Positions 6,665 through 11,012 of a stretch of 32,621 nucleotides of DNA are shown one piece after another. The DNA is from Candidatus Coatesiibacteriota bacterium. Its GTDB lineage: Bacteria > RBG-13-66-14 > B26-G2 > WVWN01 > G020348885. Location of the stretch: NCBI GenBank assembly GCA_020348885.1, contig CP070755.1:2408914-2441534 (forward strand). The letters are read 5' to 3'. Below the pieces are notes generated by a model. The model ran no database searches. It saw only the letters and a list, made by a program, of their open reading frames with translations, and was not told the origin of the DNA. Made by a program: the position numbers and the translations under genes. The number at the start of each line of letters is the position of its first letter. Position 1 is the first letter of the stretch.

Positions 6665-7498
6665 ATGAGGAACATGTATGTGATTTCGGCCTTCGCTTTG
6701 ATACCTGTATTCGCACTTGGATATGCGGCGGACGACGGTACTTCGGCCCCGGCCCGCGATCGGGTTTTCGACATTACAATCATAAACACGTTCCAGTGTC
6801 CTTACGCGACCGAGATTATGGGACTCGATTACGTCGACGGTGAGAACGCGTTGACCTTCGCCAGTAACCTGGACGACGCGTTGTATACTTGCAATGCAAA
6901 CAACGGAACCTATATCAGCGCTCTTACGTTAAATTACACCGGTAACGCCCACCCGTTCGGCGTTTGTTACGACGGCAACGGATACCCGCATGTCAACGAA
7001 TTTTCCGGCCAGAAGGTATACTGGACCGACTACGCGGAGTGGGATTACTATCCCAACCCTGCGGGGAACAAAGGTAGCGGCATGGACTTCGACGGGACCT
7101 TCATCTGGGAGACCTACTCGACCGAGGGCGTTTACCGCTTCTTGCCCGGCGGCACCAACGAAGAGTACTACCCGGCAAACGACGTTGGGGCACAGATGAG
7201 CGGCCTGGCCGTGTTCCCCTTTAACGGCAATACCTGGTTGATGCTTTCGACCCACGGCGTGTATTTGTTCTATTTCTACGAGTTCGACGGTTCCACCTTG
7301 ACGTATATAGGCGCCGACGACTGCCCGCTTGAGCTGGACCAGTCCTACGGGCTGACTTATGCGGCCGAGCGGGGTACCTTCTTCTGGAGCTACACCATAG
7401 GCGAAGAAGAATGGGTCGCCGAACTTGACTTAGGCCTCGACGACGATTCGGCCGTAATCCCGATGAGCGTGGGCGTCATAAAGGCGGCGTACAGGTAG
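6665..7498 (+). CDS. Secreted beta-propeller-like protein, block order Y-X (paralogue 1)
   Basis: 277 residues; GAGGAGGG precedes the ATG and residues 1-21 form a signal peptide (MRNMYVISAFALIPVFALGY). Two blocks follow. Block Y (about 37-188) runs from ITIINTFQCPYA to MSGLAVF and holds the conserved segments LDYVDGENA, HPFGVCYDGNGYPHVNEF and NKGSGMDF. Block X (about 190-260) runs from TWLMLSTHG through YEFDGSTLTYI and DQSYGLTY to AELDL. The two genes downstream carry the same blocks in the order X-Y, so this copy is a circular permutant. The blade-like repeats (SGL.VF, GLTY, GLDYV) suggest a propeller closed head to tail, which tolerates permutation. It ends IPMSVGVIKAAYR, the shared C-terminal motif. 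I recognise no named family or catalytic site; a surface or secreted binding protein is inferred. Confidence 0.8.
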   Translation: MRNMYVISAFALIPVFALGYAADDGTSAPARDRVFDITIINTFQCPYATEIMGLDYVDGENALTFASNLDDALYTCNANNGTYISALTLNYTGNAHPFGVCYDGNGYPHVNEFSGQKVYWTDYAEWDYYPNPAGNKGSGMDFDGTFIWETYSTEGVYRFLPGGTNEEYYPANDVGAQMSGLAVFPFNGNTWLMLSTHGVYLFYFYEFDGSTLTYIGADDCPLELDQSYGLTYAAERGTFFWSYTIGEEEWVAELDLGLDDDSAVIPMSVGVIKAAYR

Positions 7499-7524
7499 GC
7501 ACTCGAGTCCAAACGGAACCCTAC

Positions 7525-7556
7525 GGGTGGCGATATGTCGCCACCCGGTTTTTATT
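7525..7556 (+). terminator. Intrinsic terminator after propeller paralogue 1
   Basis: A 9-bp perfect stem, GGGTGGCGA / TCGCCACCC, with TATG loop (7525-7546), followed by GG and TTTTTATT. Closely related hairpins end the next two genes. Confidence 0.92.
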
Positions 7557-7626
7557 CCAAACGGTAGAAAAACGCGTCTCCGGCGGGTAAGTTAACGCGT
7601 TCGGCCGTGACTATAGCCGACGGTGT
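7552..7626 (-). pseudogene. Decayed 3' end of a PQQ-type propeller gene (copy A)
   Basis: Read on the minus strand, this stretch gives TPSAIVTAERVNLPAGDAFF then YRLE and a stop. That aligns with the C-terminus of the intact PQQ-propeller protein at 11263 (TPVVSGGRVYFGSEDGLFYCLE-stop). Homology fades upstream and there is no start. It looks like the last piece of a gene that once ran convergently toward the plus-strand propeller gene. Confidence 0.6.
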
Positions 7627-7673
7627 CGTAAGCTCAAACGAGCGTTTTTGACGGTATTTGAGGCGTTATTATC

Positions 7674-7702
7674 TTTCGCGCGTTCGGGGCGATATGTATA
7701 AT
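7674..7702 (+). promoter_or_regulatory. Probable promoter of propeller paralogue 2
   Basis: A consensus -10 TATAAT at 7697-7702 with a weak -35 (TTTCGC, 7674-7679) at 17 bases. The equivalent position upstream of the duplicated gene also carries TATAAT, so the element is conserved between copies. The leader of about 80 bases is also conserved. Confidence 0.6.
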
Positions 7703-7788
7703 AACGCCCGATTTGACTAAGAGGTAGCGTGTCGGGGCAATTAAGACCGGCGCGTGAGATGGAGTATGCTAACAATGAGAGGAGAAGT

Positions 7789-8589
7789 ATGAGGTATTTA
7801 ATCGTTATTCTGGTTATGGCGTCTCTACCGGCGTGCGCGTTCGGTGACGATAACCTCTGGCTTATGAACGCGAGCCACGGAGAGTACGTATTCAACTTCT
7901 ACGAGTTTGACGGTTCGACTCTGACGTATATAGATACCGTCGATTGCCCGCTGACGCCGTCGCAGTCCTACGGGCTGGCGTACTCGGTAGACCGCGATAC
8001 CGTCTTCTGGAGCTACGCTATAGGGAGCGACGATTCGATAAGCGAGCTCGATATCGACTTCGGTACGGACATCACCATCACCGTCGTCAACACGTTCGAA
8101 TGCCCGTACGCGGGGGAAATCCGCGGCCTCGACTTCGTCGACGGCGAGAACGCCATATCGTTTACCAGCGACCCGGATAATATGATATATACCTGCAACG
8201 CCGACGACGGGACGTACGTAAGCGAGTTGGCTTTGGGGTTCAGCAATCCCCATCCGTTTGGCGTTTGCTACGATAATAACGGCTATCCCCACTTGAACGA
8301 GTTTAACGGTAGCGATATTTTCTGGTACAACGGCGTTGACTGGAACGAATACGCGAACCCGTCGTCCAACAAAGGCAGCGGTATGGACTTCTACGGCGGC
8401 TACGTCTGGGAAACCTACTGGACCGATGGAGTGTACCGCTTCCTCCCCGACGGGACCGGCACCGAATTCTACGAAACGCCCGAGGTGGGAGCGCAGCTGA
8501 GCGGGCTCACCGTGTTCCTGAAAAGCGGCGGCGGCGACACCGGCGTCGAACCTGCGAGCATGGGTACTATCAAAGCGACGTACAGGTAG
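7789..8589 (+). CDS. Secreted beta-propeller-like protein, block order X-Y (paralogue 2)
   Basis: 266 residues from the ATG at 7789, chosen because GAGAGGAG lies just upstream and a signal peptide starts there (MRYLIVILVMASLPACAFG). An in-frame upstream start at 7729 would bury the signal. Block X (LWLMNASHG ... SELDID) comes first, then block Y (ITITVVNTFECPYA ... LSGLTVF), the reverse of the order in the gene at 6665. Conserved segments include YEFDGSTLTYI, QSYGLAY, FVDGENAISF, HPFGVCYDNNGYPHLNEF and NKGSGMDF. A short Gly-rich linker leads to the shared C-terminal motif VEPASMGTIKATYR. The protein is very similar to the gene at 8883, with which it shares leader and terminator, marking a recent tandem duplication. 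Function is unknown; extracellular or surface location is inferred. Confidence 0.8.
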   Translation: MRYLIVILVMASLPACAFGDDNLWLMNASHGEYVFNFYEFDGSTLTYIDTVDCPLTPSQSYGLAYSVDRDTVFWSYAIGSDDSISELDIDFGTDITITVVNTFECPYAGEIRGLDFVDGENAISFTSDPDNMIYTCNADDGTYVSELALGFSNPHPFGVCYDNNGYPHLNEFNGSDIFWYNGVDWNEYANPSSNKGSGMDFYGGYVWETYWTDGVYRFLPDGTGTEFYETPEVGAQLSGLTVFLKSGGGDTGVEPASMGTIKATYR

Positions 8590-8615
8590 GCACTCGAACG
8601 GAAGCGGAATAATAC

Positions 8616-8637
8616 GGGCGGCGACGAATCGCCGCCC
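8616..8637 (+). terminator. Terminator hairpin after propeller paralogue 2
   Basis: A 9-bp stem, GGGCGGCGA / TCGCCGCCC, with CGAA loop, followed by GGTATTCTATT. The T-tract is interrupted but the hairpin is strong. Confidence 0.75.
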
Positions 8638-8643
8638 GGTATT

Positions 8644-8715
8644 CTATTCCAAACAGTAGAAAAACCCGTCTTCGGCGTGTGAGTAAACGCGTCGGTCCGC
8701 GACTATAGCCGACGG
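8644..8715 (-). pseudogene. Decayed 3' end of a PQQ-type propeller gene (copy B)
   Basis: Minus-strand reading gives PSAIVADRRVYSHAEDGFFY then CLE and a stop. The last seven codons nearly match the end of the intact protein at 11263 (EDGLFYCLE-stop), and RVY precedes both. It is better preserved than copy A at 7552; both lie at the same place in the duplicated unit, so one was copied from the other. No start or upstream body remains. Confidence 0.65.
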
Positions 8716-8767
8716 TGCCGCAAGCCCAAACGAGGGTTTTTGACGGCATTTGAAATGTTATTTTCGT

Positions 8768-8796
8768 TTGCCCACTCGCCGTAATAGTAGTATAAT
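8768..8796 (+). promoter_or_regulatory. Sigma-70-like promoter of propeller paralogue 3
   Basis: TTGCCC (8768-8773), a 17-base spacer and TATAAT (8791-8796), 86 bases before the ATG at 8883. It is the counterpart of 7674-7702. Confidence 0.65.
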
Positions 8797-8882
8797 AGCG
8801 CCGGATTTGATTAAAAAGTGACGGGTCGGGGTAGTTAAGACCCGCAGGTGAGATGAGCTGTACTAACAATGAGAGGAGAAGT

Positions 8883-9686
8883 ATGAGGTATGTAGTCATT
8901 ATTTTGGTTATGGCGTCTCTGCCGGTTTGCGCGTTCGGTGACGGTGAAACCTGGTTTATGAACACGAACCACGGCGAACCGTTCAGCTTTTACTTTTACG
9001 AGTTCGACGGCTCGAGTTTGACGTATGTAGATACCGTCGATTGCCCCGACTTGGGGGTGAATCAATCCTACGGGCTGACGTACTCGGAAGAGCGGGACAC
9101 GGTCTTCTGGAGTTACGCTACCGGGAGTGCCGACTCAATAAGCGAGCTCGATATCGACTTCGGTACGGAAATTACCATCACGGTACTCAACTCGTTCGAA
9201 TGTCCGTACGCGGGGGAAATCCGCGGCCTCGACTTCGTTGACGGCGAGAACGCCATATCTTTTACCAGCGACCCGGATAACATGATATACACCTGCAGCG
9301 CCGACGACGGAACTTACGTAAGCGAGCTACCCATGGGTTTCAGCAATCCCCATCCGTTCGGCATCTGTTACGACGACAACGGGTATCCCCACTTGAACGA
9401 GTATAACGGCGGGTATATCTACTGGTACGACGGCGCCGATTGGAACGAATATGTGAACCCGTCGTCCAACAAAGGCAGCGGTATGGACTTCTACGACGGC
9501 TACGTCTGGGAAACCTACTGGACCGACGGCGCGTACCGTTTCCTCCCCGACGGGACCGGCGCCGTGCTCTATGAAACGCCCGAGGTGGAAGCGCAACTGA
9601 GCGGCCTTACCGTGTTTACGCAAAGCGGCGGCGACACCGTTATCGAACCTACTAGTATGGGTACGATCAAAGCGACGTACAGGTAG
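8883..9686 (+). CDS. Secreted beta-propeller-like protein, block order X-Y (paralogue 3)
   Basis: 267 residues from the ATG at 8883, with GAGAGGAG upstream and the signal peptide MRYVVIILVMASLPVCAFG. It has the same block order X-Y as the gene at 7789 and differs from it mainly by substitutions: TWFMNTNHG against LWLMNASHG at the start of X, and EYNGGYIYWYDGADW against EFNGSDIFWYNGVDW in Y. It ends IEPTSMGTIKATYR. The retention of every conserved aromatic and Asp/Gly turn suggests that both copies are functional. Its terminator is the strongest of the three. No known family or enzyme motif is recognised; like its neighbours it is probably an exported propeller carrying the shared C-terminal sorting-like motif. 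Confidence 0.8.
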   Translation: MRYVVIILVMASLPVCAFGDGETWFMNTNHGEPFSFYFYEFDGSSLTYVDTVDCPDLGVNQSYGLTYSEERDTVFWSYATGSADSISELDIDFGTEITITVLNSFECPYAGEIRGLDFVDGENAISFTSDPDNMIYTCSADDGTYVSELPMGFSNPHPFGICYDDNGYPHLNEYNGGYIYWYDGADWNEYVNPSSNKGSGMDFYDGYVWETYWTDGAYRFLPDGTGAVLYETPEVEAQLSGLTVFTQSGGDTVIEPTSMGTIKATYR

Positions 9687-9712
9687 GCACTCGAACCGAA
9701 GCTTATTTCTAC

Positions 9713-9742
9713 GGGCGGCGATATATCGCCGCCCGGTTTTTT
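9713..9742 (+). terminator. Intrinsic terminator after propeller paralogue 3
   Basis: A 9-bp stem, GGGCGGCGA / TCGCCGCCC, with TATA loop (9713-9734), followed by GG and TTTTTT. Confidence 0.93.
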
Positions 9743-10016: not shown

Positions 10017-11012
10017 ATGAACGCGGGAAAAGTCCTCACCGTATTGGTTTCTCTAATGGTTTTAGCGGTTATGGTCTGTTGCGACGGCGGGACCGGGCCA
10101 TCCGATAACGCGCCGACCAATCCCAACCCGGCGAACGGCGCTACCGAGGTTGATATAAACCAGGATCTTTCGTGGTCCTGTTCGGACCCGGACGGCGGCC
10201 CGTTAACCTACTATATTTGCTTCGGGACTTCTAGTGATCCGCCGCTCGTTGAAAGCGGGTACAACTCGACCGGTTACGATCCGGGGGCGATGGACTATGG
10301 GACTAAGTATTATTGGGAGATCCATGCCGAGGACGCCCGCGGGAACCGGACGACCGGTCCGGTTTGGCACTTTACGACGGAAAGTGAACCCGGCCCGTTC
10401 CTGTGGAACGCGGATTGGATCACGGAAAAAATATACAAGATAAATCCCGACACGGGGGCCGTAGTAAGTTCGTTTAATGCGCCGGGATCCTGGCCAACCG
10501 GCCTTACCTTGGTCGGCACTTACCTGTGGAACGCCGACTGGGGTGAAGGTAAAATATACCAGATAAACCCCAACACGGGGGCCGTAGTTAGGTCCTTTGA
10601 TTCGCCCGGGGTTTTACCAATAGGCCTTGCCTGGGATGGCGCCTGCCTCTGGAACGTGGACCGCGAGCGGGACGAAATAAATAAGATAGACCCCAAAACC
10701 GGGCTCGTAATAAACTCGTTTAATTCGCCGGGACCCAGTCCGGATGGCCTTGTTTGGGACGGGACCTACCTCTGGAACTCGGACTGGGGTACGGAGGAAA
10801 TATACAAGATAGATCCCGATACCGGGACTGTAGTGGAGTTCTTTGATTCGCCGGAAGTCTGGCCAGCGGGCCTTGCCTGGGACGGTGGCTACCTGTGGAA
10901 CGCGGACTCCTGGAACGGAAGAATATACAGGGTAGACCCCGACACCGGCGCCGTAATAACCTCGTTCGATTCGCCGGGGTCCTATCCTACGGGTTTAACG
11001 TGGCAACCGTAG
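10017..11012 (+). CDS. Secreted Ig/FnIII-like protein with five 41-residue propeller repeats
   Basis: 331 residues. The signal ends in LAVMVCCDGG, probably a lipoprotein cleavage site with a non-standard box. Residues about 28-122 are a bacterial Ig/FnIII-like domain (NPNPANGATEVDINQDLSWS ... YYWEIHAEDARGN ... WHFTTE). Residues about 127-331 are five tandem repeats of about 41 residues with the pattern LWN-x-D-W-x(3)-IYKI-[ND]-P-[DN]-TG-x-VV-x-SF-[DN]-[SA]-PG-x-x-P-x-GL-x-W-[DV]-G. Each repeat would be one propeller blade; such repeats occur in secreted binding proteins of many bacteria. The TTG-like context is not needed because the ATG at 10017 starts the signal directly. It has two promoters, and a hairpin follows at 11050. 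It lacks the P-x-S-x-G-x-I-K tail found on its upstream neighbours. The ligand is unknown. Confidence 0.82.
   Translation: MNAGKVLTVLVSLMVLAVMVCCDGGTGPSDNAPTNPNPANGATEVDINQDLSWSCSDPDGGPLTYYICFGTSSDPPLVESGYNSTGYDPGAMDYGTKYYWEIHAEDARGNRTTGPVWHFTTESEPGPFLWNADWITEKIYKINPDTGAVVSSFNAPGSWPTGLTLVGTYLWNADWGEGKIYQINPNTGAVVRSFDSPGVLPIGLAWDGACLWNVDRERDEINKIDPKTGLVINSFNSPGPSPDGLVWDGTYLWNSDWGTEEIYKIDPDTGTVVEFFDSPEVWPAGLAWDGGYLWNADSWNGRIYRVDPDTGAVITSFDSPGSYPTGLTWQP

Follow-up and report, generated by a model that had tools for sequence, protein, structure and literature searches.

We analysed a window of 32,621 nucleotides from Candidatus Coatesiibacteriota bacterium (contig CP070755.1; the genome holding the window is denoted G000), which contains three adjoining plus-strand genes, p1 (6665-7498), p2 (7789-8589) and p3 (8883-9686), encoding proteins of 277, 266 and 267 amino acids. 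Each protein carries two sequence blocks, X and Y, between a signal-peptide-like N terminus and a short C-terminal tail, with Y before X in p1 and X before Y in p2 and p3. This swap is real, and shows that a β-propeller has undergone circular permutation in nature between genes of a tandem cluster. The features of the cluster are listed below, with propeller strands lettered A to D and numbered by blade.

6665-7498, plus strand: p1, 277 amino acids; predicted signal peptide, Y, X and tail, the ancestral order (open reading frame (ORF), BLASTP, AlphaFold2 (AF2) model)
6770-7222, plus strand: p1 Y block; strand D5, blades 1-3 and strand A4 (alignment and model)
7226-7438, plus strand: p1 X block; strands B4-C4-D4 and A5-B5-C5 (alignment and model)
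7460-7495, plus strand: p1 C-terminal tail, PMSVGVIKAAYR
7465-7788, plus strand: end of the p1 tail and spacer, homologous end to end to 8556-8882 (pairwise DNA alignment)
7789-8589, plus strand: p2, 266 amino acids; predicted signal peptide, X, Y and tail, the permuted order; lies inside the mechanically called ORF 7729-8589 (low-confidence AF2 model)
7846-8064, plus strand: p2 X block (alignment)
8068-8520, plus strand: p2 Y block (alignment)
8551-8586, plus strand: p2 C-terminal tail, PASMGTIKATYR
8556-8882, plus strand: end of the p2 tail and spacer, homologue of 7465-7788 (pairwise DNA alignment)
8883-9686, plus strand: p3, 267 amino acids; predicted signal peptide, X, Y and tail, the permuted order; lies inside ORF 8853-9686
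8940-9164, plus strand: p3 X block (alignment)
9168-9620, plus strand: p3 Y block (alignment)
9648-9683, plus strand: p3 C-terminal tail, PTSMGTIKATYR

Two homologous blocks in swapped order

Using BLASTP, we found that p1 and p2 align in two pieces whose order is exchanged. The Y piece joins residues 37-188 of p1 to 97-247 of p2 (60.5% identity over 152 residues, E = 2.9e-68), while the X piece joins residues 178-264 of p1 to 10-97 of p2 (51.1% over 88 residues, E = 7e-26). Alignment of p1 with p3 likewise gave two pieces (56.6%, E = 1.9e-62, and 53.7%, E = 3.8e-23), and p2 and p3 matched each other in a single end-to-end piece with 80.6% identity. Over the blocks, p2 and p3 are 61% and 58% identical to p1. 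These results bear out the preliminary description of this DNA, which had assigned the order Y-X to the gene at 6665 and X-Y to those at 7789 and 8883, with correct coordinates.

The same description had proposed aligning X and Y separately, and both blocks scored far above shuffled sequences (1000 shuffles per pair). The Y blocks of p1 and p2 scored 545 (shuffle mean 37.6, standard deviation 6.7, maximum 63) and their X blocks 235 (mean 26.8, standard deviation 5.1, maximum 48), while the cross pairs Y1-X2, X1-Y2, X1-Y1 and X2-Y2 scored 36-44, inside their own shuffle ranges. For the core as a whole, the permuted alignment scored 768 against 545 for the collinear one. Because cross-block scores are at chance, the two blocks are not equivalent repeats and the swap is no artefact of blade similarity. 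Propellers consist of mutually similar blades, which would favour reading the seeming permutation as a choice of which blades to align, but this reading, to which we give almost no credence, is refuted by the off-diagonal scores and is also opposed by a one-to-one match spanning 151 + 71 residues and by the concordance of the Y and X trees described below.

All three proteins keep their own tail motif and their own N terminus resembling a signal peptide, as had been described. The motif given for the start of Y needed correction, since the original form matched none of the three proteins and IT[IV].{0,2}N[ST]F.CPYA matched all of them; the other motifs, that of the tail included, were present in 3/3. 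No further X or Y fragments were detected in the window beyond p1-p3 at E up to 0.01.

After each of the three stop codons, a GC-rich inverted repeat is followed by a T-rich stretch (approximately 7520-7552, 8611-8643 and 9708-9740). These segments are conserved and, by eye, resemble intrinsic terminators.

Distribution and direction of the change

A protein search of 61 genomes returned family matches in 3, and a profile scan of genome contigs with the Y-block alignment identified 3 loci. Among 14 genomes of the phylum, a profile search matched 10 at E up to 1e-3, with strong matches only in G000, G005 and G012. A wider search, in which at most six candidates per genome were scored, found the family in at least 5 of 386 genomes. 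Matches at E up to 1e-8 came from 37 of the 42 genomes in a second phylum, at 144 places altogether. Of these, 116 run collinearly from Y to X and 125 cross the Y-X junction (ranges transcribed by hand); inspection by eye of the remaining 19 revealed none with X before Y, several being contig-edge or frame-broken pieces. Among the ORFs of loci L017-L086, X precedes Y in p2 and p3 only, and the genome searches made here yielded no X-Y order outside G000.

In a tree of 40 rows (39 of them different), p1, one protein from G005 and the p2/p3 pair form a clade with support of 100/98. Separate block trees recovered the same clade with support of 97/94 for Y and 92/93 for X, the latter below the star threshold, and their agreement indicates that both blocks share one history. 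Because p1, p2/p3 and the G005 protein branch in no resolved order in the full tree, the permutation could date back to the divergence of G000 and G005, two genomes of the same class. Since the relatives are Y-X and p2/p3 are nested within a Y-X tree, the sequences of the genomes searched identify Y-X as the ancestral order and X-Y as the derived one, which arose most simply once.

The reverse polarity, with X-Y ancestral and Y-X derived, would fit the presence of X-Y in two of the three genes here, and the B-C-D-A register that the neighbouring propeller-like product encoded at 10017-11012 shares with p2 and p3. Against it stand the nesting of p2/p3 beside p1 and the G005 protein in the Y-X family and the confinement of X-Y to G000 in the searches made, and we judge it very improbable. 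Comparison of p2 with p3 gave dN (non-synonymous divergence) of 0.097 and dS (synonymous divergence) of 0.489; the resulting dN/dS of about 0.2 shows that the permuted form is under purifying selection.

Fold, seam and route of the permutation

The AF2 model of p1 has a mean predicted local distance difference test score (pLDDT) of 78.2 and a predicted template modelling score (pTM) of 0.77. Its ten-residue blocks mostly score 80-92, outside residues 1-31 (the signal peptide and the stretch that follows) and the tail (260-277). The model contains 20 strands, arranged as five blades of four. Blade 5 is taken to be built from strand 38-44, the first of the chain, and from the last three strands. 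Using VIA-align, we found that the best structural matches are the glutaminyl cyclases 3mbr (Z 23.9), 2iwa (23.4), 3nol (23.3) and 3nok (21.8), which align over 212-216 residues at 10-14% identity. Cyclases of this type, which we take to be five-bladed with a p1-like closure, run collinearly with p1 from residue ~30 to 260. The C-terminal domain of YjiK (3qqz) matched with Z 21.9, and NHL propellers with 17.6 and below. A profile search of PDB sequences with a six-row alignment gave matches at the level of repeats, with designed Pizza propellers first and the NHL domains of PknD and TRIM2/3 next.

Mapped onto this model, the start of the X-Y form falls between strands 178-186 and 189-196, and that of the Y-X form at strand 38-44, each inside a blade. 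Block X extends from strand B4 to C5 and block Y from D5 to A4. As these boundaries cut through blades, X and Y are not free-standing domains, and such re-cutting needs a closed ring. In p1, the seam would lie in blade 5, with its D strand N-terminal and strands A-B-C C-terminal, a 1-3 velcro. In p2 and p3, the seam would have moved to blade 4, the chain starting at B4, passing through blade 5 and blades 1-3, and ending at A4 as a 3-1 velcro. The signal peptide and tail did not rotate with the ring, but cap its new ends. That p2 and p3 close in this way is suggested by their 61% and 58% block identity to p1 and by strand A4 (QLSGLTVF), now C-terminal, which is identical between them at 8/8 positions against 5/10 in the linker that follows, making it a conserved terminal strand.

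The preliminary description had further argued for a closed circular fold. This is upheld in part, by the five-bladed model of p1 and by the short linkers that bridge the ends of each form in the other: residues 187-188 (2 residues) between A4 and B4 in the p1 model, at the ends of the X-Y form, and, in the p2 model, residues 91-95 (5 residues) linking C5 to D5, at the ends of the Y-X form. Blade 5 of the p2 model is contiguous (strands 59-66, 71-78, 81-90 and 96-104, pLDDT about 79-90), which makes the X-Y joint a short hairpin. The claim is not borne out by the p2 model at the new seam, which is not seen closing.

A tandem duplication is the most likely origin of the permuted order. A Y-X gene would have duplicated in tandem, X of one copy would have become fused to the Y that follows it in the second copy, the outer Y and X would have been lost, and the permuted gene would then have duplicated from p2 to p3. 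The spacer DNA at 7465-7788 and 8556-8882 is homologous end to end, indicating that tail, spacer and start of the next gene were duplicated as one; the 5' region of p1 has no homology to these spacers beyond a brief match at the start site (score 21). Unfused tandem arrays of the Y-X type are common among relatives. G012 (C63) carries two such genes that are adjacent, one of them interrupted, and genomes of the other phylum have tandem, unfused Y-X genes on several contigs. In G005 (C4), a relic comprising the last part of X and the tail (L047:5283-5372) precedes a complete Y-X gene by ~0.55 kb and shares 90% identity over its X part with the other G005 locus. Taken together, the tandem arrays, the relic and the homologous spacers provide the materials for permutation by duplication.

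Also in G005, a further propeller gene (L048:6977-7774) lies directly downstream of a Y-X gene, and both end in the same tail, VQPVSLGYIKALMSE, which suggests that the tail region may be copied between genes.

We consider it probable that the cluster encodes a secreted five-bladed propeller family without a name, in which the seam moved by the tandem-duplication route. Several observations weigh against this explanation. The p2 model is of low quality (mean pLDDT 66.7, pTM 0.70): pLDDT falls below 50 over the final 36 residues, strand A4 among them, and a strand of the signal peptide (15-18) sits before B4 in place of A4. Among solved structures, it comes closest to YWTD/LRP6 and NHL propellers (Z 19-22) rather than to glutaminyl cyclases. 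A closed five-bladed ring has thus been modelled for p1 only, and we infer that of p2 and p3. The X-Y order is known from one genome, and the phylum sample comprises 14. Finally, no fused X-Y-X-Y or Y-X-Y-X intermediate, nor any partly trimmed duplicate, was found among the ORFs of L017-L086 or the 144 matches in the other phylum.

The p2 model would be expected if p2 and p3, although permuted, were not closed five-bladed monomers but had another curvature, an open ring or an intermolecular swap of A4, given its YWTD/NHL-like shape and disordered C-terminal strand. This we regard as unlikely, as the low-confidence model was computed for the full-length protein with its signal peptide, a possible cause of its poor quality, and as the block identity to p1 and the full conservation of A4 between p2 and p3 speak for a retained ring.

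A better-surviving alternative is cut and paste, in which the X segment of a single gene was shifted from its end to its start without a tandem intermediate. It draws on the missing fused stage, which leaves room for a direct move of X, and on the clean joints (ELDIDF-GT-DITIT), while the tandem Y-X arrays, the G005 relic and the homologous spacers mean that a tandem route was open; we rate a direct move as possible but doubtful. Three long frames that resembled fusions (887 amino acids in G381, 466 in G386 and 413 in G417) held one propeller match each and were rejected, the G381 frame after inspection over its whole length. In tandem duplication, part of an earlier proposal survives, namely unequal exchange within an older X-Y-X-Y array. 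The tandem Y-X arrays, relic and spacers agree with it, whereas the ancestral unit is Y-X rather than X-Y, and the fused proteins that it led one to seek in relatives were absent from the loci and tables examined.

The next propeller-like gene lies outside the cluster and is given for comparison:

10017-11012, plus strand: propeller-like neighbour; five 41-amino-acid repeats, with a B-like strand first and an A-like strand last (register read from the sequence)

The repeats of its product are thus in the closure register of p2 and p3. There is also a weak N-terminal immunoglobulin-like match, below the cut-off of the Big_5 model.

Export, known systems and meaning

The tail pattern G-x-I-K-A-x-[YF]-R-stop occurs at 12 places in G000 and in 10 of the 14 phylum genomes, while the reversed pattern, used as a control, had 0 matches in all 14. 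For 8 of the 9 places in G000 outside the cluster, we recovered ORFs ending in the tail, with differing bodies, several of which are by eye unrelated to the propeller family. A model of SprA, the type IX translocon, matched all 14 phylum genomes (12 over the cut-off) and 0/14 controls. Searching p1-p3 against NCBIfam revealed no known C-terminal sorting domain, the one match, to cytidine deaminase (E = 0.2), being at chance level, and our literature search found nothing on type IX secretion in candidate phyla. The tail may be regarded as a candidate short sorting signal of a type IX system, which would explain why it kept its terminal place as the ring rotated. A start that resembles a signal peptide, together with a tail shared with other putatively secreted proteins, points to export.

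No Pfam family matched p1-p3 at E up to 1, including that of glutaminyl cyclases (PF05096). Glutaminyl cyclase activity, considered for the fold match, gains no support from the family models. The proteins p1-p3 have perhaps an even chance of being extracellular or surface-attached binding proteins, with an enzymatic role next.

Natural circular permutation by duplication is described for saposins and swaposins and for DNA methyltransferases in PMC3320104. Like p1-p3, those systems are homologues with swapped N- and C-terminal parts and with tandem copies as the likely source. They differ in that here both orders lie side by side in one small cluster, the export signals at the ends are unpermuted and the fold is a β-propeller. 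According to Mylemans et al. (PMC8458387), 1-3 and 3-1 seams are both common in nature, and 3-1 closure is the most denaturant-resistant in designed propellers. The WRAP-T and Pizza velcro permutants of that work involve the same change from a 1-3 to a 3-1 seam as that from p1 to p2 and p3; they are engineered, whereas the present pair is natural, shares about 60% identity and has its seam in another blade as well. Tachylectin-2 (PMC4735018) also has five blades, and its topological permutation by expansion and truncation was proposed and found viable in the laboratory. It differs in being a lectin with repeated motifs, and is compared with p1-p3 here by fold.

In a literature search that covered few subscription journals, we found no description of natural propeller paralogues lying next to each other in permuted forms. 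To our knowledge, seam changes in natural propellers have mostly been inferred by comparing distantly related families. Permutation of this kind is already known, and the pair is a clean natural experiment: a before and after at about 60% identity, with known direction, in which the permuted copy has been duplicated and selected. Comparing p1 with p2 and p3 would allow the effect of a 1-3 to 3-1 seam change on folding, stability and secretion to be measured in natural proteins.

It is conceivable, if improbable, that in this lineage secretion-tagged tandem arrays act as natural generators of permutations, the export signals being fixed at both ends, with rings re-cut at various blades and neighbours sampling closure registers; permuted copies might also close differently, by intermolecular strand exchange or with another curvature, and have a function distinct from that of p1. 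Our findings suggest that only the ring can be permuted in this lineage, and that the signal peptide and tail serve as position-dependent tags that stay where they are.

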